This document shows, one piece after another, positions 6,435 through 27,074 of a DNA stretch of 64,000 bases. Under the pieces are notes generated by a model. It was not told where the DNA came from. It was given only the letters and a program-made list of their open reading frames with translations, and searched no databases. Within the stretch, counting starts at the first letter, position 1, and the number at the start of each line of letters is the position of its first letter. Source of the stretch: Chloroflexota bacterium (lineage in GTDB: Bacteria; Chloroflexota; Anaerolineae; Anaerolineales; Villigracilaceae). The stretch is taken from positions 372,001 to 436,000 of the forward strand of contig JACPVF010000013.1 in the NCBI GenBank assembly GCA_016191845.1. The letters run 5' to 3'. The position numbers were made by a program, and so were the translations under genes.

Positions 6435-7499
6435 ATGTATAAACTCGATCAAATCGAAGCGGAAAAAGATGAAGTACGCCAGGCTGTGTTAAACGCCCGC
6501 GCCTACAAGCCCTTGTACGTCAAAATCAAAGTCAATTACGGTTGCAATCTTAAATGTGAGATGTGCAAGCACTGGCGCGAGACGCGCGAAGCGCCCATCC
6601 CGATGGGACGATTCAAAGAAGTCATCAGCGAACTGGCCGAACTGGGCTGTCAGAAGATCCACTTCTCGGGCGGGGAACCGATGTTGCGTCCGCAGCTGCC
6701 CGACCTGATCGAGCACGCCACGGGGCTGGGAATCCGCGTTACGCTGACCACCAATGGCACACTGATCGACAAGGTCAAGGCCAAGCGGCTGGTCGAGGCG
6801 GGGCTGCGCGGCGTGAACGTGTCCATCGACTCGCCCATCCGCAAGATGCACGAGAAGATTCGCGGCGTGGAAGGTTCGTTCAAGCTGACCACACGCGCCG
6901 TGTCGCTGTTCCGTAGGTACGCGCACAAAGGCAAGCTGACCGTGCGTATCAACACCGTGGTCGGCCGCTCGAACTACGAGACGCTTGCCTCCCTGCCCGA
7001 GTTGGCCCAACAGCTCGGCGCGGACGGCATCAACCTGATCCCCGTGGATGACCATTGCGGCGAGCACCTCTCGATGCGCAAGAAGGACATTGCCTTGTTC
7101 AACGCCGAGATCGCGCCCGTCATCGAACAGCGCGCCAGCGAATTGGGAATCAACATCGCCGACGAGGATGCCTATCCCTTCGGACGCGACGACTCCGATG
7201 TGCGGTTGGGACGCGCGGGCCGCTACGCCTTCGGCTATTACAACAAATTCCCCTGCTACGCGCCCTGGACCCACAGCCTGATCGATTTCAACGGGCTGGT
7301 CTACGTCTGCTGCATGACGCGCGAACAGATCCAACCGCTTGGAGACATACGCAAGCAATCATTTAAAGAGATCTGGGAAGGCGAACTCTACCGCCGCATC
7401 CGCTTGAACATGCACCCACCTGCGCTCAAACCCTGTCAGCGCTGTGATGATTTTATCGAAGAGAACAAGAAGATCTGGGAGACGATCGGACCTTATTGA
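6435..7499 (+). CDS. Radical SAM protein with SPASM-like C-terminus
   Basis: 354 residues. C37xxxC41xxC44 binds the 4Fe-4S cluster that cleaves S-adenosylmethionine, and GGEP (79-82) contacts the SAM amino group. The C-terminus has further cysteines (C274, C292, C293, C334, C337) with the SPASM-like phrases FNGLVYVCC and LGDIRKQSFKEIW. These enzymes modify peptides or small metabolites. No precursor peptide is seen beside it; downstream there is only a repeat-bearing gap and a convergent small zinc-finger gene. Substrate unknown. It has no PqqD-like N-terminus, unlike the radical SAM genes at 17.7 and 20.5 kb. Confidence 0.87.
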   Translation: MYKLDQIEAEKDEVRQAVLNARAYKPLYVKIKVNYGCNLKCEMCKHWRETREAPIPMGRFKEVISELAELGCQKIHFSGGEPMLRPQLPDLIEHATGLGIRVTLTTNGTLIDKVKAKRLVEAGLRGVNVSIDSPIRKMHEKIRGVEGSFKLTTRAVSLFRRYAHKGKLTVRINTVVGRSNYETLASLPELAQQLGADGINLIPVDDHCGEHLSMRKKDIALFNAEIAPVIEQRASELGINIADEDAYPFGRDDSDVRLGRAGRYAFGYYNKFPCYAPWTHSLIDFNGLVYVCCMTREQIQPLGDIRKQSFKEIWEGELYRRIRLNMHPPALKPCQRCDDFIEENKKIWETIGPY

Positions 7500-15549: not shown

Positions 15550-15948
15550 ATGGGAAAAACCTTCCTTTATGTCGGTGCGGGAGTCCTGTTTCTGATCGGT
15601 CTGTGTCTGCTGGCTTTCGGCGGCATCACACTCTACGGGTCCACCGCCCCCAACGGTCAATCCAACTGGATGCCCATCGGGTTGGCCCTGAGCGCTTTCG
15701 GGGTGCTGGTCATTGCGGGCGGCGCAGGGATGATCGTCGCTGCCATGCGCGGGACCAAGACCGAGGTCGTGCAACAGGTGACGATGAAGGTGGACCTGCC
15801 AGGTCAGACCAAGATCGAGGAAGTCAAATGCCGTTCCTGCGGCGGGACTCTTTCCGCTAAAGATATCACCCTGTCCAACGGCGCTCCCATGGTCAACTGC
15901 CCGTATTGTCACACCATCTATCAATTGACCGAAGAACCCAAGTGGTAG
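15550..15948 (+). CDS. Small two-span membrane protein with C-terminal zinc ribbon
   Basis: 132 residues from ATG 15550, which has AGGAG 9 nt upstream; an in-frame extension to 15439 has no such site. Two hydrophobic spans (about 4-26 and 38-62) are followed by a basic/charged stretch and a zinc ribbon, CRSCGG ... CPYCH. The ribbon probably faces the cytoplasm. Function unknown. It ends 34 nt before the DUF2207-like gene and reads in the same direction, so it is likely co-transcribed with the radical SAM cassette. Confidence 0.8.
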   Translation: MGKTFLYVGAGVLFLIGLCLLAFGGITLYGSTAPNGQSNWMPIGLALSAFGVLVIAGGAGMIVAAMRGTKTEVVQQVTMKVDLPGQTKIEEVKCRSCGGTLSAKDITLSNGAPMVNCPYCHTIYQLTEEPKW

Positions 15949-15981
15949 AAGAGCATTACGTGATAACTCCAAGGAGACTTC

Positions 15982-17646
15982 ATGCATAGAAGACTTCTCG
16001 CCTCCCTGATGGCCCTCCTGCTCGCGTTCGGACTGGTTTCGAGTGCCTCAGCCCAATCCTATTCCTTTGGCCTGCCGAAGGAAGTGGTCGACGTGTACTG
16101 GAACGCCGACGGCTCAATGGCTGTGAATTACGCCTTTACGTTCACCAACGAACCAGGTGCACATGTTATCGATTTCGTGGACGTGGGCACACCCAATTCT
16201 TCCTACGACGGCAGCCAGATCCGCGCGGACGTGAACGGGAATCCCGTCACCATCTCCACCGATTACCAGGGCACAGGTTCGGGCTTTGCCGTGGACCTGG
16301 GCGGGTACGCCATCCAGCCTGGGCAGTCGGGTACGGTCAACGTCTACATTGGCCGAGTCAACAACGTGCTGTATAAGGATGACCAGGACGAAGCCTACGC
16401 CTCGGCCGTTTTCGAGCCAACCTATTTTGAAGGCAGTTTCGTCAACGGCGACACCGACCTGACGGTCACCTTCCACCTGCCGCCTGGGGTCAAGCCCGAG
16501 GAACCGCGTTGGCACAGCGCCCCATCGGGATTCCCGTCCGAGCCCGTCGCGGGCCTCGACGAGCAGGGCCGCATCACCTACACCTGGCAGAATCCCACCG
16601 CAAAGGGTTCGCGCTCGTACGAATTCGGCGCGTCCTTCCCCAAATCCTATGTACCCGCCGACGCCATCGTCACGGCTCCACCTGCGCCCGCCTTCAACAT
16701 CAGCGGCGATACGCTGGGCGGATTCTTCATGTTCTGTTGCTTCGGTTTGTTTTTCCTCGTCATCCCCGGGCTGACCGCCATTCAGAACAACCGCCGCAAA
16801 CTGCAATATATGCCGCCGCGTGTGGCCCTCGAGGGTCAAGGCATTAAACGCGGCCTGACCGCCGTCGAAGCAGCCATCCTGCTCGAGCAGCCGCTCGACA
16901 AGGTCATGACCATGATCCTGTTCGGTGCGGTCAAGAAGAACGCCGCCGAAGTGGTCCGCCGCGACCCGCTGGAAGTCAAGGCCATTGCGCCTCAACCCGA
17001 GGGACTCAATCAGTACGAGATCAACTTCCTGAAGGCCTTTGAGCAGCCTGTGGGCGCAAACCGTCAAAAAGCGCTGCAAGACCTGATGATCGCGCTGGTC
17101 AAGAGCGTCTCTGAAAAGATCCGCGGGTTCAGCCGCAAGGAAACCGTGGACTACTACAAGTCCATCATGGAACGGGCCTGGCAGCAGGTCGAAGCGGCAG
17201 ACACGCCCGAGGTCAAGAGCCAGAAGTTCGAAGAAGCCATGGAATGGACCATGCTCGACCGCGACTACGACGATCGCATGCGCCGCACCCTGCACGGCCC
17301 GATCTTCATGCCGATGTGGTGGGGCCGCTACGACCCGACCTTCCGCCCCGCCTCACTGGGCTCCGCGCCCCGAACGGCCGCGCCAACCAGCCAGGGCGGA
17401 CGCGTCACCCTGCCTGGCGCGGATATCGCCGCCTCGATGGTCACGGGCGTGCAGACCTTCTCCAGTAAGGTAATGGGCGACCTCAATACCTTCACCAGCC
17501 GCGTAACTAGTGCCACCAATCCCCCGCCCAAGCCATCCACAGGATCGACTTATCGAAGCGGCGGCGGCAAGAGCGGAGGCTGCGCCTGTGCGTGCGCTTG
17601 CGCATGCGCGGGTTGCGCCTGCGCCTGTGCGGGCGGTGGACGGTAA
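15982..17646 (+). CDS. DUF2207-like membrane protein with alternating Cys-Ala C-terminal tail
   Basis: 554 residues. A signal peptide (1-24, ending SSASA) precedes an external beta domain resembling DUF2207 (VVDVYWNADGSMAVNY, GAHVIDFVDVGTPN). One membrane span lies near residues 245-265, followed by a cytoplasmic region of about 280 residues. The last 24 residues are low-complexity: GGGKSGG, then eight cysteines alternating with alanine (C534-C549, one Gly interruption), then GGGR. The alanine codons vary (GCC, GCG, GCT, GCA), so the pattern is kept at protein level rather than by recent repeat slippage. A radical SAM gene with a peptide-recognition domain starts 34 nt downstream, which suggests the tail is modified; that is inference. 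GGAG precedes the start. Confidence 0.82.
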   Translation: MHRRLLASLMALLLAFGLVSSASAQSYSFGLPKEVVDVYWNADGSMAVNYAFTFTNEPGAHVIDFVDVGTPNSSYDGSQIRADVNGNPVTISTDYQGTGSGFAVDLGGYAIQPGQSGTVNVYIGRVNNVLYKDDQDEAYASAVFEPTYFEGSFVNGDTDLTVTFHLPPGVKPEEPRWHSAPSGFPSEPVAGLDEQGRITYTWQNPTAKGSRSYEFGASFPKSYVPADAIVTAPPAPAFNISGDTLGGFFMFCCFGLFFLVIPGLTAIQNNRRKLQYMPPRVALEGQGIKRGLTAVEAAILLEQPLDKVMTMILFGAVKKNAAEVVRRDPLEVKAIAPQPEGLNQYEINFLKAFEQPVGANRQKALQDLMIALVKSVSEKIRGFSRKETVDYYKSIMERAWQQVEAADTPEVKSQKFEEAMEWTMLDRDYDDRMRRTLHGPIFMPMWWGRYDPTFRPASLGSAPRTAAPTSQGGRVTLPGADIAASMVTGVQTFSSKVMGDLNTFTSRVTSATNPPPKPSTGSTYRSGGGKSGGCACACACACAGCACACAGGGR

Positions 17647-17680
17647 CTTGGAATCGACGTCACAAATTTATAGATGAGAT

Positions 17681-19045
17681 ATGGCTTTCTTTAATTCGGT
17701 CAAAAACATCTTCCAATCGCGGTCTGTGGCCCACGGGCCAGCGGCTGGCCTTTACCATTACACCCGCGAGGACGCGTTCGAGAAATCGCGCATTCATCTG
17801 CGCCTCGATGCAGACGGCCACGGCACGTTGATCGTCAACGCCAACCGCGTGATGCATTTGAATCCGACCGCGGCCTTCATGGCGTGGATGATCCTGGAAG
17901 GAAGGGCGAAAGAGGAGAGAATCCGCGCGCTCACATCGCGCTACTCGGTATCGAAAAAACAAGCCGAGACCGACTTATTGGATTTCAACTTCCAACTCGA
18001 CGAATTGCTGCGCCCCGACGGCGCCTGCCCCGTCCATGAACTGGATACCGACACGCTGGCCCCGTTCAGCGCGCGGCCGTCCGCGCCCTACCGCATGGAC
18101 CTGGCCATTACCTATCGATGCAATAACGACTGCGCCCATTGCTACAACGCTCGCGAACGGAACTTCCCCGAACTCAGCACCGAGCAGTGGAAGAAAATCC
18201 TCGATCAACTCTGGGCATTGGGCGTGCCGCACATCGTCTTCACGGGCGGAGAGGCCACCCTGCGAAACGATCTTCCCGAACTGATCGCCCACGCCGAATC
18301 CAATGGGCAGATCACGGGCCTCAACACCAACGCCCGCCGTCTGTCGGATATGGACTACGTGCAAAAACTGGTGGCTGCGGGTCTGGACCACGTGCAGATC
18401 ACAGTCGAGTCATGCGATGAAGCCATCCACGACGAGATGATGCGTGCGAAAGGCGCCCACAAGCAGACCATCCGCGGCCTGCAGAATGTGTTGAACACGC
18501 GCCTGTACGTGATGACCAACACCACCATGCTGCGCACCAACGTCCACAAAATTTCCGACACGCTGGATTTTCTGGCCGATCTGGGCGTGCCGACTGTCGG
18601 CCTGAATGCACTCATCTACTCGGGCAACGGCCTGACAGTGGGAACAGGTCTGCGCGAAAGCGAACTGCAACCCATCCTCGACATGGCCACACACAAGACC
18701 GCCGAGCGCGGACAGAAGTTGATCTGGTACACCCCCACGCAATATTGCCAGTTCGACCCCACCGCCAGTAACCTGGGCGTCAAGGGTTGTACGGCGGCGC
18801 TGTATAGTATGTGCATCGAATCGAATGGAAACGTCCTGCCGTGCCAATCGTACTACATACCCGTCGGCAATATCCTGGCTGACTCATGGGACTCGATCTG
18901 GAACCATAAGCTATCCTCGCAGCTGCGTGAACGCCAGGGCCTGCCCGAGAAGTGCGATGGCTGTCCCGTGGTGGCCGAATGCGGCGGCGGCTGTCCGCTC
19001 AAGTTCGAACATCCATCCCTCATCCAAATGGAAGTGCCTGCATGA
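17681..19045 (+). CDS. Radical SAM/SPASM enzyme with PqqD-like (RRE) N-terminal domain
   Basis: 454 residues. Residues about 35-112 resemble PqqD, the peptide-recognition element used by RiPP-modifying enzymes (RIHLRLDADGHG, LNPTAAFMAW). The radical SAM core has C147xxxC151xxC154, then FTGGEA (187-192). The SPASM region keeps seven cysteines (C370, C378, C388, C425, C428, C434, C438), enough for auxiliary 4Fe-4S clusters. This architecture is that of maturases that crosslink or oxidise ribosomal peptides. The likely substrate is the Cys-Ala tail of the gene just upstream, or an unseen peptide. It overlaps the PAS gene by 4 bp (ATGA). Confidence 0.9.
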   Translation: MAFFNSVKNIFQSRSVAHGPAAGLYHYTREDAFEKSRIHLRLDADGHGTLIVNANRVMHLNPTAAFMAWMILEGRAKEERIRALTSRYSVSKKQAETDLLDFNFQLDELLRPDGACPVHELDTDTLAPFSARPSAPYRMDLAITYRCNNDCAHCYNARERNFPELSTEQWKKILDQLWALGVPHIVFTGGEATLRNDLPELIAHAESNGQITGLNTNARRLSDMDYVQKLVAAGLDHVQITVESCDEAIHDEMMRAKGAHKQTIRGLQNVLNTRLYVMTNTTMLRTNVHKISDTLDFLADLGVPTVGLNALIYSGNGLTVGTGLRESELQPILDMATHKTAERGQKLIWYTPTQYCQFDPTASNLGVKGCTAALYSMCIESNGNVLPCQSYYIPVGNILADSWDSIWNHKLSSQLRERQGLPEKCDGCPVVAECGGGCPLKFEHPSLIQMEVPA

Positions 19046-19383
19046 CAGAACACGCCTGGATCAAGGAATTTCCCGCCGCCGTGACGGTTTGCGATTCAAA
19101 CGGGGTTATCCTCGAAATGAACGACAAGGCCGCCAGGACCTTTGAGAAGGATGGTGGCTATAAACTGGTCGGCTCGAATATGCTGGATTGCCACCCCGAC
19201 CCTGCGCGGAGCAAGGTCGAGCGCCTGCTGGCCGCCCGCGAGAAGAACGTCTATACCATCGAGAAGAACGGCGTGAAGAAGATGATCTTTCAAAGTCCGT
19301 GGTATCAGAACGGTGAGTATGCAGGCTTCGTGGAACTCTCGCTCGAGATTCCGTTCGAGATGGAGCACTTTGTCAGGAAATAG
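19042..19383 (+). CDS. Stand-alone PAS-domain protein
   Basis: 113 residues, one PAS fold: FPAAVTVCDSNGVILEMNDKA, then LVGSNMLDCHPDPARSK, then a final beta pair QSPWYQNGEYAGFVELS. PAS domains sense redox state, light, oxygen or small ligands. There is no output domain, so it probably acts by contact, perhaps with the radical SAM enzyme to which it is translationally coupled through the ATGA at 19042-19045. Ligand unknown. Confidence 0.85.
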   Translation: MTEHAWIKEFPAAVTVCDSNGVILEMNDKAARTFEKDGGYKLVGSNMLDCHPDPARSKVERLLAAREKNVYTIEKNGVKKMIFQSPWYQNGEYAGFVELSLEIPFEMEHFVRK

Positions 19384-19386
19384 CAA

Positions 19387-19419
19387 AAACCCTAAAGGTC
19401 TTGCAGACCTTTAGGGTTT
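19387..19419. terminator. Strong hairpin after the PAS gene
   Basis: A perfect 15-bp stem (19387-19401 with 19405-19419, loop TGC) begins four bases after the PAS stop. An A-run precedes it and only TTT follows. It may be a partial terminator inside the cassette or a palindromic repeat. Confidence 0.7.
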
Positions 19420-19428
19420 ACCGAAATT

Positions 19429-20460
19429 ATGATCACTCTTGCCAACGCCGAGATCTGTTACCTGCTGGCCTTCCCAGACGCGGCCGAAAAAACCACGGAA
19501 CCTTCCCAGACGATCCGCGGTCTTAAGGACGCGCCCTACTTCCAGCCGTTGGACATCACTGTCCGCACGCTGAGCCAGGTCCAGGTCGAGGCCATGGGCG
19601 TGGGTGTCACGGTCACCCGCCAGAAGTTCGATGAGCGTATCCAGATGGTCGAGTGCCGCTTCAGCCTGCCCAACATCCTCACCGCGGAGTCCAACCAACT
19701 TTGCGAGGCCATTCAAAAAGCCTTGACAGGCATGCTGGTGCCGCAAACCCACCAGGAAAAAGGGTTGTTCGAGCAATATGTCATTCTGCTGGCCCGCCTG
19801 GCCAATGGGACACCCGACGAGTTCGTCGAAGCGAATGCCGCGGCCCTGGCTCGTTTCATCCGCACCCAGCGCGAGGTCTTCGACCAGAACCAGATCGACG
19901 AGATCCTCAGTTCGCGTGTGCGCTACTCGCAGGATGACCTGACCCTGGTCGACTGGGAGGGCGCGCTGGTCATCGCCCGCGATAGCGATTACCAATCCGA
20001 CATCGAGTTGCTCAAAGTCGGCAACTACCAGTTACTACGCTACCGCATGGTCGACCAGACCCTCGATGGCAGCCTGCGCCTGATCAACGAGAAGTTCCGC
20101 GCCAACCCGCGCCGCTTCCTGCCTGGCCCCACGCGCGGACAGATCCGCCGCATCGTGCAGTTACGGCTCGACATCATGCTCGACTTCGAGCATACCGAGC
20201 AGAACCTGTTGCTGATCGGCGACTGGTACACCGCCCAGCTTTATCACGCCATCCGCGACGAGTTTTACCTCGAAGAATGGAAGCAGTCCATCAAGGACAA
20301 GCTCGACAACCTGCAGGACATTATCCAGACCATTCAGGAGAATTTTTCGCTCACCTGGGCGGGATTGCTCGAACGCGTGGAACTGATCGGCTGGATCCTT
20401 TTGCTCATCGGCTATTTCGTGCTCTTCTTCATGGAAGAGATCTTCAAGAACAAACCCTGA
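19429..20460 (+). CDS. Uncharacterised protein with C-terminal membrane anchor
   Basis: 343 residues; I do not recognise the family with confidence. Most of it is soluble and mixed alpha/beta. A charged helical region (EEWKQSIKDKLDNLQDIIQTIQ, likely coiled coil) leads to a single C-terminal span (LIGWILLLIGYFVLFFMEEI) and a short basic end. This tail-anchored layout recalls RMD1/DUF155 proteins, but I do not see enough to assign that. It lies between the two RRE/radical SAM genes, 13 nt before the second, so it is probably part of the same unit. Confidence 0.75.
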   Translation: MITLANAEICYLLAFPDAAEKTTEPSQTIRGLKDAPYFQPLDITVRTLSQVQVEAMGVGVTVTRQKFDERIQMVECRFSLPNILTAESNQLCEAIQKALTGMLVPQTHQEKGLFEQYVILLARLANGTPDEFVEANAAALARFIRTQREVFDQNQIDEILSSRVRYSQDDLTLVDWEGALVIARDSDYQSDIELLKVGNYQLLRYRMVDQTLDGSLRLINEKFRANPRRFLPGPTRGQIRRIVQLRLDIMLDFEHTEQNLLLIGDWYTAQLYHAIRDEFYLEEWKQSIKDKLDNLQDIIQTIQENFSLTWAGLLERVELIGWILLLIGYFVLFFMEEIFKNKP

Positions 20461-20473
20461 TTCGGAGGGACGC

Positions 20474-21607
20474 ATGAACTTCATCACCCGCCTGTTCTCC
20501 AAAGTGGAACCCCTGCCTGAGGGCACGCACCACATGCAAGCCCAACTTGATGAGAAGCCCTACCGTCTGCATCTGCGTCTGCGCGGAGACGGCTCTGCCA
20601 TTCTGGTGGTCAACGCCGCCACGGTGCTGCACCTCAACCCCACCGCGGCGGAATTTGCCTACCACTTCGTGCGCGGCACGGACCCCGTCGATGCAGCCAG
20701 GGAAGTCGCCGCCCGTTACCGCATCAACCGCAAGCAGGCCCAGAGTGATTACCTGACCTTCGTCGAACGCATCCATGCCCTCATCTCCACACCCGATCTG
20801 GACCCCGTCTCCTTCCTCGATTTCGAGCGGGTCGCCCCCTACTCCGCGGACTTGAGCACCCCCTTGCGCCTCGACTGCGCCCTGACCTACCGTCTGTCCG
20901 AAGGTTCCCACGCCGACACGGCCCCTGTCAAGCGCGTGGATCGTGAGCTGACCACCGACGAGTGGAGGGCCATCCTCGACAAAGCCTGGCGCGCGGGCGT
21001 GCCGCACATCACCTTCACAGGCGGCGAACCGACCCTGCGTGAGGACCTTCCGCAGCTCATCGCTCACGCCGAGAAGAATGGTCAGGTCTGCGGCCTGCTG
21101 ACCGACGGCCTGAAACTGGCCGACAAGACCTACCTCGACCTTCTGCTCCAGACAGGTCTTGACCATGTCCTGCTCATCTTACAGCCCGAAGTGGACGCCT
21201 GCTGGAAAGCCATTGCCACCGTCCTGCCCGAAGACTTGTTCCTGACCGTGCACATCACAATCAATGAAGCCAACGCGTCGCAATTGCCCACTTACCTCGA
21301 CCGTCTGGCTGCGCTCGGGGTAAAATCCCTATCTCTTAGCTTCAGCGCCGACCTGGGCGCGGAGGCTCAGTCCACGATGCGCAACACCGCCGCCGACCTG
21401 GGTTTCACCCTGCGCTGGGACCTGCCCGTTCCGTACTCCGCATCCAACCCTGTGGCCTTCGAGACGAAGGAAGATTCAATCCCTTCGGGCGCGGGTCGGG
21501 CCTGGATGTACGTCGAACCCGACGGCGATGTGCTGCCCACCCAGGGTGCGGCGGATCGAATCCTCGGCAATCTCCAGACCGATCCGTGGGAAAAGATCCA
21601 CCTTTGA
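20474..21607 (+). CDS. RRE-fused degenerate radical SAM protein (cluster cysteines lost)
   Basis: 377 residues. It aligns by eye with the 17681 enzyme. The PqqD-like region (about 30-100: YRLHLRLRGDG, HLNPTAAEFAY) and the core ITFTGGEPTLREDLPQLIAHAE are kept. Where the active enzyme has CNNDCAHC, this protein has LSEGSHAD after LTYR, so it cannot bind the SAM-cleaving cluster. The SPASM cysteines are also gone (WMYVEPDGDVLPTQGAAD) and the protein stops about 75 residues early, at DPWEKIHL. The frame is intact and codon use normal, so it looks like a functional pseudoenzyme, perhaps a substrate-holding partner, rather than a pseudogene. GGAGGG lies upstream. Confidence 0.87.
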   Translation: MNFITRLFSKVEPLPEGTHHMQAQLDEKPYRLHLRLRGDGSAILVVNAATVLHLNPTAAEFAYHFVRGTDPVDAAREVAARYRINRKQAQSDYLTFVERIHALISTPDLDPVSFLDFERVAPYSADLSTPLRLDCALTYRLSEGSHADTAPVKRVDRELTTDEWRAILDKAWRAGVPHITFTGGEPTLREDLPQLIAHAEKNGQVCGLLTDGLKLADKTYLDLLLQTGLDHVLLILQPEVDACWKAIATVLPEDLFLTVHITINEANASQLPTYLDRLAALGVKSLSLSFSADLGAEAQSTMRNTAADLGFTLRWDLPVPYSASNPVAFETKEDSIPSGAGRAWMYVEPDGDVLPTQGAADRILGNLQTDPWEKIHL

Positions 21608-21692: not shown

Positions 21693-22670
21693 ATGAGAAA
21701 AAACGAAAACAATCTCCTTCCCGTTTTGGCGGGTATCTTCACCAGCCTGCTGTGTCTGGCGATCATCGGTGGCTCGGTCTACTTTGGAGTCCAGTACTTC
21801 AAGAATCGGCCCGTTGTTGAGATTCCTGAAAGCGTGCCCGAGAGCGTGGACCAGGTCAAGGCCGAGTGCGCCGACGGTCAATGCATCGAAGGTTGTGTCG
21901 CCAAGGCAGCCAGGGCCGTCGGCGATGGCATCTATCCCAGCGCGATGGAGCCTGGCTCTGAGAGCCTGCTCGTTTCATACAAAGTGGACGGAAATGCCAT
22001 TTCCGATCCCAGCTACCACTCTGCGCCCGCCAAGTTGTTCGTGTACGCCCACAATAACGGAGTCCACCACCGCATCTGGGATTACTTCACGGGCGTGGTT
22101 CCCCTCACAGATCGGCCTGGCTTGCAAGAGTTCGACATTTACGCGGGTGGCGAGTCGGGGGCGCAATTCTCACCCACTGACGACGGCGGCTGGATCCTGC
22201 GCTTCAACGTGCTCGCCAGCACCGACTCGAATTACCTTACCGACGCGCTGATCCACGAGTACGGACATTTCATCACACTCAACCCCACCCAACAGGTCCC
22301 CCTTAAGACAGGTGAGGCCTGTCCGCAGGAAGCGCTTTACGAGTGCCCCGCGCCCGACTCCTATGCCAACCAGTTCTTCGAGAAATTCTGGCGTTCGATC
22401 TATCACGAGTGGACGGGCACACGCGGCGATCCAAACGCCGGCTATCAGTTCTACCTGCGATACAGCGACCAGTTCGTCACCGAGTACGCCGCCTCCCAGC
22501 CGCTCGAAGACATCGCCGAAAGCTGGACCTATTTCATCATCCGCCCCAAACCCACGGGTGACACCGTCGCCGACCAGAAAGTGCTCTTCTTTTATCAGTT
22601 CCCCGAATTGGTGGACCTGCGTTATCAGTTGATCTATGGGATTTGCAACTATGAACCGCCTACCCAATAA
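21693..22670 (+). CDS. Membrane-anchored HEYGH metallopeptidase-like protein (copy 1 of 3)
   Basis: 325 residues. An N-terminal span (about 9-33) with basic flank anchors it outside the cell. HEYGH at 188-192 is a HExxH zinc site; EDIAES at 272-277 offers the glutamate expected downstream in gluzincin-type peptidases. Near the N-terminus CADGQCIEGC forms a C-x3-C-x3-C cluster, shared with copy 2. The C-terminal block DIAESWTYFIIRPKP ... KVLFFYQFPELVDLRYQLI is conserved in all three tandem copies. Proteolysis is inferred from the motif; substrate unknown. Its end overlaps copy 2. Confidence 0.82.
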   Translation: MRKNENNLLPVLAGIFTSLLCLAIIGGSVYFGVQYFKNRPVVEIPESVPESVDQVKAECADGQCIEGCVAKAARAVGDGIYPSAMEPGSESLLVSYKVDGNAISDPSYHSAPAKLFVYAHNNGVHHRIWDYFTGVVPLTDRPGLQEFDIYAGGESGAQFSPTDDGGWILRFNVLASTDSNYLTDALIHEYGHFITLNPTQQVPLKTGEACPQEALYECPAPDSYANQFFEKFWRSIYHEWTGTRGDPNAGYQFYLRYSDQFVTEYAASQPLEDIAESWTYFIIRPKPTGDTVADQKVLFFYQFPELVDLRYQLIYGICNYEPPTQ

Positions 22671-23697
22671 GAATTTCCGTCTGCTCCTCCTGACCCTCGG
22701 CCTGCTGACCGTTTCCCTGGCCTGCGCCACCGCCGAGACTCTCGTCAACGGGACGCCAACGCCCATACCCACCTCCACGGCCGCCCTCACGCCGACTCCT
22801 GCCGACACACCTACGGCAACGGTCGTCCCCACCGTGGATTGGACCCCCATCGCCTGTGAAGGTGGAGACTGCATCGACGCCTGCATGGCCCGCGTGGAAG
22901 CCATCCTCGAAGTTAGCCCTTACAAAGACTTGACCGACGAGTTGATAGGCGACTCGACCAATTACGATCTTGCCACCTATCCCGTGAACGGAAACGAGAT
23001 CGGCGATATCGAAACCTTGTGGGCCCCAAAGGAGTACAAGATCTTCCAGGAGGACCAGGACACACATCGCCGCATCTGGAACTATTTCACAGCTGTCATT
23101 CCCGCCGGGATGCGTAAGCGGGTGGACGAATTAATCATCTTCACAGATGGGCCCCGCAACCGACTGGCCTACGTCAAGCCGACCTCGGACGACACCCAGA
23201 CCTGGGCCATCGCTTTCGACATTCTCGACTCCGATTACCCGCCCTATCTGACCGAGACCCTGGTCCACGAAGTTGGGCATCTCGTCACAATCGACGCGGC
23301 GCAACTCGACACGGACAACCACTCGGAGTCAACTTGTAAGACCTTCCTTCTGCCTGAGGGCTGCAGCACCGAGGACTCCTACATCAGCCAGTTTTACGAA
23401 CGCTTCTGGCCCGACCTGACCGACGAGTGGAGCGAAGTGGAGGCCGCGCAAAGCGAAGCGGAATATCATATCCTGGTCGAGAATTTCTACCGTCGACACT
23501 CCGGTGAGTTCGTCAGTTCCTATGCTGCCACCAGCCCCATCGAGGACATTGCCGAGAGTTGGGCCGTCTTCGTGCTGACACCCAAGCCCGAGGCGAAATC
23601 CATCGCGGATGAAAAAGTGCTCTTCTTCTATGACTTCCCTGAGCTGGTGGCCTTCCGCCAGCAGATTATCCAGGGATTGTGCTCATATACGCAGTGA
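22651..23697 (+). CDS. Lipoprotein HEVGH metallopeptidase-like protein (copy 2 of 3)
   Basis: 348 residues from ATG 22651; ATG 22636 is an alternative with no better ribosome site. The signal MNRLPNKNF... ends in a lipobox (SLAC), followed by a Thr/Pro-rich linker, then a C-x3-C-x3-C cluster (CEGGDCIDAC). HEVGH lies in LTETLVHEVGHLVTID and EDIAES in SPIEDIAESWAVFV. It overlaps copy 1 by 20 bp. Same family, different anchoring (lipid rather than a membrane span), which argues the copies share a site of action on the cell surface. Confidence 0.82.
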   Translation: MNRLPNKNFRLLLLTLGLLTVSLACATAETLVNGTPTPIPTSTAALTPTPADTPTATVVPTVDWTPIACEGGDCIDACMARVEAILEVSPYKDLTDELIGDSTNYDLATYPVNGNEIGDIETLWAPKEYKIFQEDQDTHRRIWNYFTAVIPAGMRKRVDELIIFTDGPRNRLAYVKPTSDDTQTWAIAFDILDSDYPPYLTETLVHEVGHLVTIDAAQLDTDNHSESTCKTFLLPEGCSTEDSYISQFYERFWPDLTDEWSEVEAAQSEAEYHILVENFYRRHSGEFVSSYAATSPIEDIAESWAVFVLTPKPEAKSIADEKVLFFYDFPELVAFRQQIIQGLCSYTQ

Positions 23698-23746
23698 CGG
23701 GGCAATATAACTGTTTATGCCTTGCAAGGAGGAGCCATAACATTTG

Positions 23747-23788
23747 ATGTTATGCTTATCGAAATTTTCGCAGAGGTTTTATGAATAA
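23747..23788 (+). other. Possible 13-codon leader ORF overlapping the next start
   Basis: ATG 23747 opens 13 codons ending in TAA at 23788, past ATG 23781 of the next gene. AAGGAGGAG (23727-23735) precedes it, and a hairpin (CATAACAT, 23736-23743, with 23747-23754) covers its start. Short and unproven. Confidence 0.25.
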
Positions 23789-24851
23789 GAACATGGTTTG
23801 GATCGTCACAGGGGTGGTCCTGTTGTGCTGCGCCATCGTTTGTTGCGCAGGCGTGGTTGGATATTATTATTTCACCACGGAAGAAACTGTCAGCGCCACC
23901 GAACTTCCGCCTGTTGCAGAGGGGCCGCAAGTCACGGAGCTGCCGTCGGTACCCGCCACGGAGTCACCTGTCGCCGCCTGCCCTGCCTCGATGCAAACCA
24001 TTATTGATGCCGTACAGTACTCCGTCTACAGCCCCGACGACTCCAGCGGCGCAGACGAACCCGACTCGGTCAATCTGGTCATCTACAGCGTGGACGGGGA
24101 TCAGATCAACGATCCGCAATTTGAGGATGTTCCGTCCAAGTTGAAGTCCTTGCAAAAGGATACCTCCTCTCAGCAACTGGCCTGGGACTTGTTCACCAAG
24201 CTGATCCCCGCCGACCAGCGGCAGGTGGTTTCCGAATACGTAGTCTTCACCGATGGTCCCAGCAACATACTGGCCGCCGTCGAGCAATCTTATGATGACC
24301 CTGAACAGTGGATGGTCGAAGTCGACAGTGCCGATCTGGCCGACCGCGAAAATTTGTATTTCACCCTCGTCCACGAGTTTGGTCACCTGCTCACCCTCGG
24401 CCCAAGCCAGGTGCCGCCCGACGTGGAGGTCTACAACGACCCCGATGATGCCGACCTGTACGACCGCAAGGTAGCCGCCTGCCCCACCTACTTCCCTGGC
24501 GAGGGATGCAGCCTGCCGACCTCGTACATCAACGCCTTTTACGATCACTTCTGGACGGCCCTGGTGGACGAATGGCAGCCCATCGACGATCTCGGCTACG
24601 GCGACGATCTCGAGACCTATTACGACGAGTTGTACGCCTTCTACGAGCGCCACCAGGACGAGTTCGTGGACGACTACGCCACCACCAACCCATCCGAGGA
24701 CATCGCCGAGTCGTTCGCCTATTTCGTCTTCTCGTCCAAACCCGCAGGGGATGCAGTTGCCGAACAGAAGATTCTGTTCTTTTACGAACACCCCGAACTG
24801 GTGACCCTGCGCTCCGAGATCCTGGCGAGCTTCTGCCAACTGGAGGAATGA
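23781..24851 (+). CDS. Membrane-anchored HEFGH metallopeptidase-like protein (copy 3 of 3)
   Basis: 356 residues. An N-terminal span (about 5-29, unusually rich in cysteine: LLCCAIVCCAGVVGYYYF) anchors it. HEFGH occurs in YFTLVHEFGHLLTLG and EDIAES in NPSEDIAESFAYFVF, followed by the shared KILFFYEHPELVTLRSEIL block. The N-terminal CxxxC cluster of copies 1 and 2 is reduced to a single Cys (AACPAS). Its stop overlaps the phosphatase start (ATGA 24848-24851). Confidence 0.82.
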   Translation: MNKNMVWIVTGVVLLCCAIVCCAGVVGYYYFTTEETVSATELPPVAEGPQVTELPSVPATESPVAACPASMQTIIDAVQYSVYSPDDSSGADEPDSVNLVIYSVDGDQINDPQFEDVPSKLKSLQKDTSSQQLAWDLFTKLIPADQRQVVSEYVVFTDGPSNILAAVEQSYDDPEQWMVEVDSADLADRENLYFTLVHEFGHLLTLGPSQVPPDVEVYNDPDDADLYDRKVAACPTYFPGEGCSLPTSYINAFYDHFWTALVDEWQPIDDLGYGDDLETYYDELYAFYERHQDEFVDDYATTNPSEDIAESFAYFVFSSKPAGDAVAEQKILFFYEHPELVTLRSEILASFCQLEE

Positions 24852-25372
24852 CCGTGGACGAACGTCCCATCCCCGAGACCTATTGGGTGGAACCTGACCG
24901 CTTCCTCGCTGGGGAATATCCTGGCCGCCCCAACGATGAGCTCACTCGTCAGCGCCTCGACCGTTTCCTCGCACAGGGATTCGATACCTTCATCGACCTG
25001 ACCACCGAAGGGGAAATGCCGTCCTACCACCCCATCCTGATCGAGCAGGCCCGCATCTACGGCCTGACCGTCCGTCACCTGCGTTTCCCCATCGGCGACT
25101 TTGGCCTGCCCACCCGCGAAGGCATGGCTGCCATCCTGAACGCCATTGACTCGACCCTGGCCGAGGGCCACAAGGTCTACGTCCATTGCTGGGGCGGCAT
25201 CGGGCGGACGGGCACCACAGTCGGCTGTTACCTCGCCCGCCACGGCCTCAGCGGCGACCAGGCCCTTCGTCAACTGGCCGAGTGGTGGCGGGAAGTCCCC
25301 AAAAGCGCCGTCCATCCCCATTCCCCTGAAACCCTCCAGCAAATGCAATTCGTGCTGGCTTGGAAGGAGTAA
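24848..25372 (+). CDS. Protein tyrosine / dual-specificity phosphatase family
   Basis: 174 residues from ATG 24848, fixed by the 4-bp overlap with the preceding gene. The signature HCWGGIGRTG (nucleophile C114, R120) and an upstream general-acid aspartate (D84 in FPIGDFGLP) make an intact Cys-dependent phosphatase site. It would remove phosphate from Tyr/Ser/Thr or from a small phosphorylated molecule. No signal peptide, so cytoplasmic. No kinase is adjacent, and its substrate is unknown. Confidence 0.88.
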   Translation: MTVDERPIPETYWVEPDRFLAGEYPGRPNDELTRQRLDRFLAQGFDTFIDLTTEGEMPSYHPILIEQARIYGLTVRHLRFPIGDFGLPTREGMAAILNAIDSTLAEGHKVYVHCWGGIGRTGTTVGCYLARHGLSGDQALRQLAEWWREVPKSAVHPHSPETLQQMQFVLAWKE

Positions 25373-25375
25373 CCC

Positions 25376-26344
25376 ATGAAACCCGTTCAACGTCTCCTCG
25401 TCGCGCTCCTCATGCTCTTCACGTTCGTCAGTCTGGCCTGTCAGACCGCGACCAACCTGGTGGTCACACCCACCCCCACCGCCTCGCTCACCCCTACCAT
25501 CACCCTCACCCCCACACGCACCCCGCGCCCCACCAAGACCTTTACGCCCACCCCCACGCCGCTGGTCATCAAAGTGGAGAATATGCACAGGGTCCGCAGC
25601 GGCGGATTCGACTTCGCCGTATTCGACGGGATGAAGACGGAAATCAGCAACCATGATGCGTTCATGTACAGCAAGGACGAAAAGCTGAATGTCTACCTCT
25701 CGGCGCAGGTCCCCTATCCCGGTGAGCACATCAACACCACGCTCAAATATTACATGGAATGGGCAAACAAACAGTTCCGCAATGTGACCGAAGGGGAGCG
25801 CCAAACTTTCACACACGCGGGCGCGGAAGGTGCCGGGACGTCCTTCAGCGGCCTCACCAAGGATGGTGAACCCTTCCAAGCCCGCGCCGCCTTCCTGCGC
25901 CCTGAACACGGCAAGATGCTCACCCTGCTGGTCTATGCCTATGGCGAGGGAGCCTGGGACGAATTTGGCGAACGGGCCTACCAGACCACACTCGATAGGA
26001 TCACCTTTTTCGAGATCACTCCCTGGGAAGGTTGCCCCATTTCGACCGACCCATCCTACGGCTTCTCAGACAAGAAGCCTGTGCCGCTCGGCGGCGAGCT
26101 CCTTTTGGGTCCAGACCGTGAGGAGGATTACCTGAGCGCCCTGCTCGGCAAGGATGGCGGGGTGGTCTTCTACTCGCGCATCGATACCGTCGAAGTCAAT
26201 GGCAAGACCCTCGACAAATATATCCTGCGTGTTGGAAACGGCGGCAGCAAAACCTTGTTCATCGACCTGCACAATGCGGGGCCCGTCCTGGCACCCTCGG
26301 GCATGACCTGTTCCAGTCCGCTGCCTGCCCAACTAGGAAACTAA
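25376..26344 (+). CDS. Lipoprotein with Thr/Pro linker, function unknown
   Basis: 322 residues. The signal peptide ends in a lipobox (VSLACQ) and is followed by about 35 residues of Thr/Pro-rich linker, then a globular region of about 260 residues without a motif I know (FDGMKTEISNHDAF, YAYGEGAWDEFGERAYQ). Only 3 nt separate it from the phosphatase, with GGAG just before, so the two are in one operon. Confidence 0.8.
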   Translation: MKPVQRLLVALLMLFTFVSLACQTATNLVVTPTPTASLTPTITLTPTRTPRPTKTFTPTPTPLVIKVENMHRVRSGGFDFAVFDGMKTEISNHDAFMYSKDEKLNVYLSAQVPYPGEHINTTLKYYMEWANKQFRNVTEGERQTFTHAGAEGAGTSFSGLTKDGEPFQARAAFLRPEHGKMLTLLVYAYGEGAWDEFGERAYQTTLDRITFFEITPWEGCPISTDPSYGFSDKKPVPLGGELLLGPDREEDYLSALLGKDGGVVFYSRIDTVEVNGKTLDKYILRVGNGGSKTLFIDLHNAGPVLAPSGMTCSSPLPAQLGN

Positions 26345-26345
26345 A

Positions 26346-27074
26346 GTGGACTGGCACGCCCGTTACCTCCAGCAAGCCCGTTGGACGCGCGACCTGCGCG
26401 CCTACCTGTTCGAGCGTGCGGGCTGGAGGGAGGCGCGCCGTGCCCTGGAAGTGGGATGCGGGACGGGTGCGATCCTGCGCGAGTGGGCGGGGCCCGCATC
26501 CCTGCACGCCCTGGACCTGGAGCCTGCCTCCCTGGCCCAATGCGGACTCTACGCCCCGGGCACACACCGCGTCCGCGCCGACGGGTTGGTCTTGCCCTAT
26601 CCCACCGCCGCATTTGACATCACCTTCTGCCATTTCTTCCTGTTGTGGGTGCGCGATCCGCTGCAAGCCCTGCTCGAAATGAAGCGCGTTACCCGCCCGG
26701 GCGGAAGCGTGTTGGCATTGGCCGAACCCGATTACACTGCCCGCGTGGACGAGCCGCCCGAACTCCGTCCATTGGGACGCTGGCAGGCCGAGTCCCTGCG
26801 TCGGCAGGGGGCAGACGTGGGTTTCGGCGCGCGGCTGGCGGAGACCTTCTTCCAGGCGGGCATCCCGCTCATCGAAACGGGACCCATCCAAAGTCAGGGA
26901 AATGAGTCCGCGCCTGGGGAACGGGAAATGGAATGGGCCGTGCTCGAAGCTGATTTGGCGGACTTTGTCCCGAGTGAAGACATCCAAATTATGAAGCGAC
27001 TGGATGGGCAGGCCTGGTCAAACGGGACGAGGGTGCTGCACGTCCCAACCTATTTTGCCTGGGGGAGGGTCTGA
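26346..27074 (+). CDS. Class I SAM-dependent methyltransferase
   Basis: 242 residues. Motif I LEVGCGTGAIL at about 36-46 binds S-adenosylmethionine; LHALDLEPASLAQC supplies the acidic residue for the ribose, and FDITFCHFFLLWVRDP plus MKRVTRPGGSVL complete the Methyltransf_11 pattern. Substrate unknown. GTG 26346 follows the previous stop by one base, indicating coupled translation. Confidence 0.88.
   Translation: MDWHARYLQQARWTRDLRAYLFERAGWREARRALEVGCGTGAILREWAGPASLHALDLEPASLAQCGLYAPGTHRVRADGLVLPYPTAAFDITFCHFFLLWVRDPLQALLEMKRVTRPGGSVLALAEPDYTARVDEPPELRPLGRWQAESLRRQGADVGFGARLAETFFQAGIPLIETGPIQSQGNESAPGEREMEWAVLEADLADFVPSEDIQIMKRLDGQAWSNGTRVLHVPTYFAWGRV

Follow-up and report, generated by a model that had tools for sequence, protein, structure and literature searches.

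Does the radical SAM enzyme encoded in this locus chemically finish the end of the membrane protein encoded just upstream of it? In the window, by which we mean the whole analysed stretch of 64,000 nucleotides, the + strand at 15550-21607 holds six ORFs, A to F, with intergenic gaps of 33 bp (A-B), 34 bp (B-C), -4 bp (C-D, an overlap), 45 bp (D-E) and 13 bp (E-F). The original prediction had described six genes in one direction with short or overlapping junctions, and all six were found in this layout; its bounds, however, missed a methyltransferase partner further downstream. A conserved tail protein beside its own radical enzyme suggests an undescribed chemical finishing of a whole protein's end. 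The features of the locus are the following.

15550-15948, + strand: gene A, small membrane protein with two hydrophobic segments and a C-terminal CxxC...CPYC zinc-ribbon-like domain, ending ..EEPKW
15982-17646, + strand: gene B, tail protein of 554 aa, with signal peptide, outer beta-domain, one transmembrane helix, cytosolic helical domain (predicted) and Cys-Ala tail
16054-16650, + strand: B residues 25-223, predicted extracytoplasmic beta-domain (predicted structure, fold comparison)
16705-16803, + strand: B residues 242-274, transmembrane helix (hydrophobic core and charge bias)
16804-17550, + strand: predicted cytosolic part of B, helical domain and helix pair before the tail (putative role)
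17581-17643, + strand: B residues 534-554, tail CACACACACAGCACACAGGGR with 8 Cys, presumed modification site
17681-19045, + strand: gene C, RRE-radical SAM/SPASM enzyme of 454 aa (profiles and motifs)
17834-17998, + strand: PqqD-like RRE of C, residues 52-106 (29.3 bits, cut-off 23.4)
19042-19383, + strand: gene D, single PAS-like domain protein, lineage accessory
19429-20460, + strand: gene E, unknown protein with a C-terminal hydrophobic segment, lineage accessory
20474-21607, + strand: gene F, RRE-radical SAM pseudoenzyme, GGE kept, radical-SAM and aligned auxiliary-cluster cysteines absent
21693-22670, 22636-23697 and 23781-24851, + strand: three successive paralogues with HExxH-type motifs, between F and the methyltransferase
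24848-25372, + strand: protein with an HCxxGxGRT motif, presumably phosphatase-like (NCBIfam matches weak)
25376-26344, + strand: predicted lipoprotein, stopping 1 bp before the methyltransferase
26346-27074, + strand: class I methyltransferase, GTG start

The C-terminal end of B reads ...GGCACACACACAGCACACAGGGR, that is, eight cysteines alternating with alanine, as originally described, with one interruption by a glycine. The commonest tail is encoded by 67 DNA versions (identical DNA was dropped first), all of which give one peptide while their third codon positions are only 44% identical, so that the conservation of the tail is not due to chance. The uniform formula of 144 CA tails (some genomes were present twice) is partly built in, because the pattern used to select them, (CA)n, optional G, (CA)m, GGGR, already demands it. 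The unselected figure comes from the 85 B-matching ORFs of the class stretches: 68 had CA tails, 12 had a second type, CHSA, in which His stands beside Cys in the repeat, and the 5 others were fragments, contig-end pieces or another protein.

A tail of this kind could also be an unmodified, metallothionein-like metal binder (CxCxC), with C as a neighbour whose Fe-S clusters or activity depend on B or are sensed by it. CxC arrays are classic metal ligands, and both the His that joins Cys in CHSA tails and the zinc-ribbon-like A found beside B in 49 of 62 CA stretches would fit such a role. However, a metal store needs no formula as rigid as that of the 68 CA and 12 CHSA tails among 85 ORFs, and C bears an RRE, is nearest to SkfB and PqqE, falls into clades that track the tail type, and is accompanied by recurring dead copies. 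We consider an unmodified metal binder unlikely, and prefer crosslinking of the tail by C.

The tail is widespread. A tail DNA pattern blind to the neighbouring genes gave at least 118 stretches, of which 80 became loci; in 79 of the 80 it lay in frame within an ORF, and 78 of these ended in GGGR. The loci are labelled as at least about 17 phyla, a lower bound subject to MAG binning errors, and five of them are Asgard. Bellilinea caldifistulae GOMI-1, Ornatilinea apprima P3M-1, Leptolinea sp. HRD-7 and Hungatella hathewayi WAL-18680 are among the tail matches listed; since the record titles of these four bear no MAG label, native proteomics should be feasible. Two Bacillota variants had no cytosolic domain, no A and no methyltransferase in the examined stretches, and their tails extend past GGGR, so that not every system would have a leader and methylation. 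A wider spread in Lachnospirales was considered and dropped, as the Hungatella tail protein matched 2 of 146 genomes, Hungatella itself counted; a plasmid search with the Hungatella tail gave no match.

Enzyme C has PqqD/RRE, Radical_SAM (92.4 vs 29.5 bits) and SPASM (40.2 vs 21.5 bits) domains, all above their Pfam cut-offs, which bears out the RRE-fused radical SAM/SPASM enzyme of the original prediction. Its radical cluster motif CX3CX2C is CNNDCAHC (residues 147-154), GGE is present at residues 189-191, and seven conserved C-terminal cysteines mark the auxiliary-cluster region. The best solved matches of the C profile were SkfB (6efn, E 6.5e-36) and PqqE (6c8v, E 7.2e-32), with 5v1q and 5wgg also matched; next after SkfB and PqqE came two non-peptide enzymes, tetraether-lipid synthase and cytosylglucuronate decarboxylase.

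Small peptides are the substrates of SkfB- and PqqE-type enzymes, and by this analogy C could be a conventional RiPP maturase whose small precursor escaped notice, the tail protein being incidental. A single small precursor gene within A-F was rejected, however, because the gaps between the genes leave no space for it (the neighbour-family survey covered ORFs of at least 100 aa), and C was found in many phyla via loci that had been selected by the tail. An overlooked precursor is thus very improbable, and the tail of B is the preferred candidate substrate.

B and C are a conserved pair. Both were present in 87 of 396 class genomes, B alone in 7 and C alone in 20 (Fisher p 9e-59, kinship ignored), as anticipated for a tail protein and an RRE-radical SAM enzyme that belong together. 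Among the 62 class stretches with a CA tail, which leave out 16 of the 94 B-positive class genomes, an active C was found in 49, on the same strand in 49 of 49 and within 200 bp in 37. Here, "active C" and "pseudo" refer to the presence or absence of CX3CX2C, combined with score and length limits; radical-SAM-type matches below 90 bits and fragments, methyltransferase matches below 80 bits and A matches below 50 bits were dropped. Eleven of the 13 genomes whose CA-tail stretch had no active C have C elsewhere. Active C also occurred in 57 of the 80 short loci found blind to the neighbours, and where it was missing from a tail locus, a genome search found it in 15 of 17 cases. Tail proteins are therefore not routinely found apart from a radical SAM neighbour.

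The reverse test, starting from C, led to the second tail type. In the 20 genomes with C only, a CHSA-tail B lay directly upstream in 10, contig ends cut the locus in 7, and 3 had no tail. The C enzymes of CHSA-tail systems form one clade in the tree. There are exceptions to the pairing: at L277 and L273, C lies mid-contig and a search for a tail gene found none, one genome (G346) has B and no C at threshold, and in several f38 and f53 genomes B and C lie on separate contigs. The system is dispensable, since both B and C are absent from 7 of 25 genomes of the same family.

The architecture of B points to a tail on the inner side of the membrane. The nearest solved folds of the beta-domain were oligosaccharyltransferase complex chains (Z 16.9; we take the matched chain to be Ost1/ribophorin I), followed by M1 aminopeptidase N-domains (Z about 12). 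The hydrophobic core of the transmembrane helix is followed by 4 Lys/Arg within 15 residues and preceded by none; from this charge bias and the one predicted helix, the C-terminal side of B is predicted to be cytosolic. The cytosolic domain weakly resembled GOLPH3/GPP34 (Z 7.6, 7.5 and 6.6, next row 2.3; rmsd 4.2-4.6 over 161-164 residues), and a Foldseek search with it gave nothing at E 0.001; we treat this predicted likeness as a lead only. The helix pair before the tail may be a built-in leader (a leader-motif regular expression, which was too strict, matched 13 of 103).

The window B matches no Pfam or NCBIfam model, so its original description as DUF2207-like is true only via distant relatives. 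On the CHSA-type B of L094, PF09972 (DUF2207) reached E 1.8e-4 and 22.2 bits, under the cut-off of 24.4, and DUF2207_C matched 2 of 54 B members (best E 0.04, under cut-off). PF09972 found no match in the window B or in its own genome; DUF2207 was therefore rejected as a formal label and kept as a distant relation.

The pair is more often accompanied by the methyltransferase and by the zinc-ribbon protein A than by the PAS protein or E. Of 36 well-flanked CA stretches, 30 had the methyltransferase, against 0 of 25 CHSA loci (0 of 16 with 3 kb on both sides). The copy in the window shares 57 and 63% identity with the genes of L036 and L046 that overlap F, and its next relative in its own genome scored only 36.7 bits. 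A homologue of A, whose zinc-ribbon profile matches are all below cut-off, occurs in 2 of 5 Asgard loci in addition to the CA-type stretches of the host's class counted above. D and E were rejected as core genes on frequency, having been found in 11 and 13 of the 62 CA-type class stretches, respectively. The PAS match of D was marginally below threshold (23.0 vs 23.1). Because of the rarity of D, nothing in the comparison of genomes speaks for a general role as redox or ligand gate. The single hydrophobic segment of E spans residues 317-335 of 343, in line with a tail-anchored protein. The HExxH-type paralogues are a family-level accessory, and we are unsure whether the phosphatase-like protein and the predicted lipoprotein are members of the system.

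The methyltransferase resembles BioC and UbiE/MenG models. Together with tetraether-lipid synthase as third-best solved match of C, the membrane location of B and the part of the scaffold that pseudoenzymes have kept, this likeness would suit a tail that serves as a docking strap, recruiting C (and F) to the membrane for a third molecule such as a lipid, a quinone or another protein. A strap would be expected to drift, yet the letters of the tail are fixed across bacteria and Asgard archaea, and no third substrate was recognised among the further neighbour families, two unlabelled ones aside. Docking is in our judgement a distinctly improbable role for the tail, and we continue to favour its modification by C.

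Gene F exceeds the PqqD (24.0 vs 23.4) and Radical_SAM (46.7 vs 29.5) cut-offs and has no CX3CX2C, which agrees with its earlier reading as an RRE-fused radical SAM pseudoenzyme. Such dead homologues recur beyond this locus, as seen in the tree and in residue comparisons. They fall into two clades, one with GGE kept and the other with four SPASM cysteines kept. The loss of the radical-SAM cysteines holds by construction, because "pseudo" is defined by the absence of CX3CX2C; the GGE and SPASM comparison is independent of that definition. The tree separates the two clades, a joint grouping was not rejected (AU p 0.427), and independent origin is not claimed. The RRE (PqqD) is uneven among the dead homologues: F of the window is over the cut-off, F of L060 reaches 22.7 of 23.4, Cps of L077 reaches 15.6, and Cps of L122 has none. 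Anti-phage defence was considered as a function and set aside: PADLOC gave only viperin (pVip) matches on C and F, expected because the radical SAM fold is shared, and a mad2 match on the methyltransferase.

Our main reading, to which we assign a probability of roughly 0.6, is that C, guided by its RRE, crosslinks the cytosolic Cys-Ala tail of B, probably by Cys-to-Ala thioethers, and that the methyltransferase finishes the tail. B would be exported by its signal peptide, with the beta-domain outside, one helix across the membrane, and the helical domain, the helix-pair "leader" and the (CA)nG(CA)mGGGR tail in the cytosol, as predicted; a membrane protein would then carry its own RiPP-like core as a C-terminal tail. 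The RRE of C, with help from the catalytically dead F or Cps in systems that have one, would grip the region before the tail, and the radical SAM and auxiliary clusters of C would bond cysteines of the tail to residues elsewhere in it. Most likely, this would yield a set of Cys-S-to-Ala thioethers in a hairpin that turns at the Gly and sets each Cys opposite an Ala. In systems with a free GGGR, the BioC-like methyltransferase would add a methyl group, perhaps on the C-terminal carboxylate. The weakest step concerns function: the stiff, partly thiol-bearing end would probably be an element that responds to metal or redox state at the inner face of the membrane.

Ala is a thioether acceptor in ruminococcin C1 (Cys5-Ala12) and Trn-beta (Cys9-Ala25), and nested hairpins are usual, according to excerpts of PMC8172795; the same excerpts report that AlbA rejected Ala when it replaced the enzyme's own acceptors, which counts against the Cys-Ala reading. 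Other points against the main reading are that radical SAM/SPASM/RRE enzymes make other bonds too and that the solved matches of C next after SkfB and PqqE are enzymes that do not act on peptides. The complete picture, a system of bacteria and Asgard archaea with a thioether-locked Cys-Ala hairpin, RRE-bearing dead chaperones, GGGR methylation and a tail code that changes together with the enzyme clade, is tentative, and we rather doubt that all of it will hold.

If the main reading is true, RiPP-type radical chemistry reaches beyond small peptides, and many lineages, Asgard archaea among them, use it to finish the ends of whole membrane proteins. Were the tail a thioether hairpin, a full-length membrane protein would owe a lasting functional part to this chemistry. 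Substrate recognition by RREs can be tested directly, given that the tail formula is fixed, that its two codes go with different enzyme clades and that the dead enzymes keep different halves of the catalytic apparatus.

Excerpts of CC-licensed PMC papers yielded no description of the B-C tail system, and no paper among the CC-licensed PMC papers contained both "DUF2207" and "radical SAM". DUF2207 proteins (YciQ-like, SMU.243) are alike in having an outer beta-domain, a transmembrane segment, a cytosolic winged-helix-like segment and a Gly-rich end, but every B-family match to them is under cut-off. F recalls TIGR04347, a radical SAM/SPASM homologue named pseudo-SAM protein by NCBIfam (46.5 vs a cut-off of 525); F differs in having an RRE and in its link to a tail protein. 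The maturation of sactipeptides and ranthipeptides (AlbA, SkfB, CteB, PapB) shares the RRE-fused radical SAM/SPASM enzyme, the Cys-rich core, GGE and the auxiliary-cluster cysteines. Here, in contrast, the enzyme would act on the end of a membrane protein of 554 aa, no small precursor was seen within A-F, and dead homologues and a methyltransferase accompany the system.

The closest known system consists of TIGR04222 (near_uncomplex) membrane proteins beside MNIO (DUF692) enzymes. B looks like a distant relative of these proteins, since TIGR04222 matched the CHSA-type B of L094 (E 4.2e-8, 33.1 bits vs a curated cut-off of 43) and gave weak matches in 7 of 54 B members (best E 4.2e-6); it had no match on the window B. 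The enzymes are unrelated, RRE-radical SAM/SPASM here and MNIO there, and a search of the window's own genome with the MNIO profile (PF05114) gave no match, while 2 of 14 control genomes matched. As described in the excerpted text of PMC12452194, TIGR04222 proteins are full-length membrane proteins whose C-terminal end is rich in Gly/Ser and in Cys, and they stand beside a RiPP enzyme that modifies Cys; the system of B would share this arrangement. The TIGR04222 tail is predicted to be periplasmic in the same text, whereas that of B is predicted to be cytosolic, and the tail formula of B is, unlike that of TIGR04222, nearly fixed.

The six same-strand genes of the original prediction were all found as open reading frames between positions 15550 and 21607 of the window. 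They are listed here with two further features that bear on the system.

A, + strand: small membrane protein whose end resembles a zinc ribbon
B, + strand: tail protein of 554 residues that begins like a signal peptide, crosses the membrane with one later helix and terminates in GGCACACACACAGCACACAGGGR
C, + strand: RRE, radical SAM and SPASM domains, each above the Pfam cut-off
D, + strand: PAS-like protein, Pfam match just below the cut-off
E, + strand: protein with a hydrophobic segment at its C-terminal end
F, + strand: homologue of C without CX3CX2C
21693-24851: three paralogous secreted proteins in a row, carrying the HExxH-type motifs HEYGH, HEVGH and HEFGH
26346-27074: methyltransferase, separated from F by the three HExxH proteins and then by genes for a phosphatase-like protein and a lipoprotein

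The three domains bear out the assignment of C as an RRE-fused radical SAM/SPASM enzyme. Relatives of the HExxH proteins, possibly processing peptidases, adjoin the system in a ten-locus cluster, the window counted. A second, separate radical SAM-like gene with a CNLKCEMC motif lies at 6435-7499 on the + strand.

Among 396 genomes of the same class, B was matched in 94 (E 0.001) and the C profile in 107 (E 1e-80). Comparison of the result rows by hand gave 87 genomes with both, 7 with B only, 20 with C only and 282 with neither, a table for which the Fisher test ignores phylogeny. Four of the seven B-only genomes are weak B matches (E 4e-5 to 8e-4). Inspection of all 20 C-only genomes revealed a B with the second tail type (CHSA tail) directly upstream of C in ten and C at a contig end in seven. 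In L273 and L277, C lies mid-contig and no tail gene was found on looking for one; L292 has an F-like gene and nothing else of the system. The C homologue of L277 (5354-6745) is nearest to the CHSA-type enzymes; the genes beside it are transporter-like and no tail gene is close by, and its substrate may have changed. Neither B nor C was present in 7 of 25 genomes of the same family, so the system can be lost.

B stretches were taken from 77 of the 94 B-positive genomes and the window, with 16 genomes left out. The resulting 81 stretches comprised 62 with a CA tail, (CA)nG(CA)mGGGR, 15 with a CHSA tail and 4 without a readable tail. With no tail rule applied, 85 B-matching ORFs divided into 68 CA, 12 CHSA and 5 others, of which two are pieces at contig ends, two are fragments and one is a different protein. 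Active C, i.e., a homologue with CX3CX2C, was present in 49 of the 62 CA and 14 of the 15 CHSA stretches. For 11 of the 13 remaining CA stretches, C was located elsewhere in the genome; G393 has only a contig-edge fragment, and no C was detected in G346 at the threshold.

A search from the tail alone, with a degenerate DNA pattern for CACAGCACACA, returned at least 118 matching stretches, 80 of which were analysed. In 79 of these 80 the motif was in frame in an ORF, which ended in GGGR in 78; one locus (L144) is cut by a contig end, and the Hungatella hathewayi protein (L188) runs on beyond GGGR. Active C was present in 57 of the 80 short loci. In the 54 loci with B and C fully classed, the two were at most 200 bp apart in 47 and on the same strand in 52. 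Whole genomes were searched for 17 loci without C, giving C matches of at least 540 bits in 13, a match of 409 bits in pieces (G401), a match of 261 bits to the gene adjoining the tail gene (Hungatella), only a contig-edge piece of 178 bits (G411) and nothing convincing (G410). Five of the remaining six C-less loci have a piece of C at the edge, and the sixth (L165) is on the contig of another analysed locus. The predicted co-occurrence of tail protein and radical SAM enzyme was thus tested from B, from C and from the tail, and B and C are a conserved pair.

By label, the 80 analysed loci (of at least 118) belong to Chloroflexota (51), Armatimonadota (5), Fermentibacterota (4), Aminicenantes (3, without a phylum label), Planctomycetota, Coatesbacteria and Myxococcota (2 each), and Zixibacteria, Acidobacteriota, Edwardsbacteria, Actinomycetota, Bacillota and Hydrogenedentota (1 each). 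The other five of the 80 are from Asgard archaea (Hodarchaeota 2; Heimdallarchaeota, Sigynarchaeota and Promethearchaeota 1 each); three contain B, C and the methyltransferase, and the other two have A with B, and C elsewhere in the genome. Most records are titled MAG; those of Ornatilinea, Leptolinea, Bellilinea and Hungatella carry no such label. Upstream of A on the opposite strand is a gene that we take to be mutase-like. It recurs in 24 stretches including the window, all Chloroflexota by title or kinship, which is the picture of plain local synteny, unlike B-C.

After removal of identical DNA sequences, the commonest CA peptide was encoded by 67 distinct sequences whose third codon positions agree at only 44% on average, indicating that the amino acids are kept by selection. 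An inner Gly was present in 143 of 144 CA tails chosen by a tail rule, the exception being (CA)6 in L296. CHSA tails consist of CHSA units, end near VSRF and go with one enzyme clade (10 rows of the tree). When tails are mirrored around the Gly, each Cys meets an Ala in all five G-containing formulas compared; as every (CA)nG(CA)m gives this result, the pairing hints at a geometry but does not count as evidence for it. Passages of two articles describe Ala as an acceptor and nested hairpins in sactipeptides (PMC8172795; PMC6779426), and one of them reports that AlbA does not accept Ala as a substitute for its native acceptors (PMC8172795).

Other arrangements were also seen. A reduced two-gene Bacillota version (L249 8539-11063; L296 4396-6793) was detected in 2 of the 146 genomes searched in that order, one of them Hungatella. 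It pairs a radical SAM gene with an adjoining protein of 326-335 aa in which the CA tail continues into AGCSxKDFY... In L126 and L137 two kinds of system converge within a single locus: the + strand carries an active C2-type enzyme and a B2-like gene in which no CA tail was read, the - strand F and a B that ends in a CA tail. L106 (8794-9926) has a short, tailless B-like gene (236 aa) next to a gene resembling A; the same genome also carries a full system. A 311-aa gene directly 3' of C in L091 (10261-11193) is a member of a family represented in 12 class stretches and has a weak, sub-threshold DUF3829 match.

A Methyltransf_11 protein, absent from the originally predicted gene set, is a recurrent neighbour, with 53 loci in its cluster. 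Among relatives its gene often overlaps F at its end or stands after B or C. Within its own genome it has no near relative (self-match 553.9 bits, next 36.7), and its best named relative is a BioC model (55.1 bits, far below the cut-off of 342). Of the 36 CA stretches flanked by 5 kb on each side, 30 contain it; it was absent from all 25 CHSA loci, 16 of which have 3 kb on each side, and from both Bacillota loci with tails past GGGR. Because its presence follows CA tails with a free GGGR, and not CHSA or extended tails, we infer that it would methylate the free C-terminus of the tail.

Window B matched no Pfam or NCBIfam model, and the B of L123 no Pfam model at E 0.01. The CHSA-tailed homologue in L094 matches DUF2207 (E 1.8e-4) and TIGR04222 (E 4.2e-8), both below the curated cut-offs, and weak TIGR04222 matches occur in 7 of 54 B members; the proposed DUF2207 likeness thus holds for a relative rather than for window B itself. 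Its transmembrane helix has four Lys/Arg in the 15 residues after it and none before. In an AlphaFold2 model from 54 aligned sequences (mean pLDDT 86.7, pTM 0.55) the tail is disordered. The cytosolic part (pLDDT 84.6) has only a weak fold match, to GOLPH3/Vps74 (Z 7.6). The predicted outer beta-domain (16054-16650) is nearest to chains of oligosaccharyltransferase complexes (best Z 16.9, rmsd 2.8, 184 residues), followed by M1 aminopeptidase N-domains (Z about 12). The structure rows name the complex only, and we assume that the chains are Ost1/ribophorin I. That subunit is also reported from Asgard archaea (PMC10307638). B too is encoded in Asgard genomes, and the modelled likeness would be one of shared fold only.

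In a 94-row tree, F (17 rows) and Cps, a second pseudoenzyme clade (15 rows), form two clades with support of 100 each; a single common origin was not rejected on this tree. F has kept GGE in 17 of 17 and has none of the aligned auxiliary-cluster cysteines. In Cps, GGE is no longer present as a motif, but each of the four SPASM cysteines at the C-terminal end persists in 14 or 15 of the 15 rows. Pfam recognised the RRE in window F, placed that of the L060 F just below cut-off, matched one Cps weakly and did not match another. The simplest reading of these sequences is that F and Cps were retained for binding, not catalysis. This reading supports the chaperone role proposed for the dead homologue and does not prove it.

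Among solved structures, C matches SkfB best (E 6.5e-36) and then PqqE (E 7.2e-32), followed by a tetraether-lipid synthase and cytosylglucuronate decarboxylase. SkfB and PqqE act on ribosomal peptides; the other two do not. The tail is the sole conserved cysteine-rich neighbour found, which favours it as the substrate of C, the best reading of the sequence data; the bond type, the methyl site and the function of the modified tail we infer. A published description of the system was sought in the openly licensed literature, and none was found. The nearest published idea is the proposal that MNIO enzymes modify the Cys-rich ends of TIGR04222 membrane proteins (PMC12452194). Compared with that proposal, the new elements are a radical SAM enzyme with an RRE, a tail of fixed formula, dead partner proteins, a methyltransferase and an occurrence that extends to Asgard archaea.
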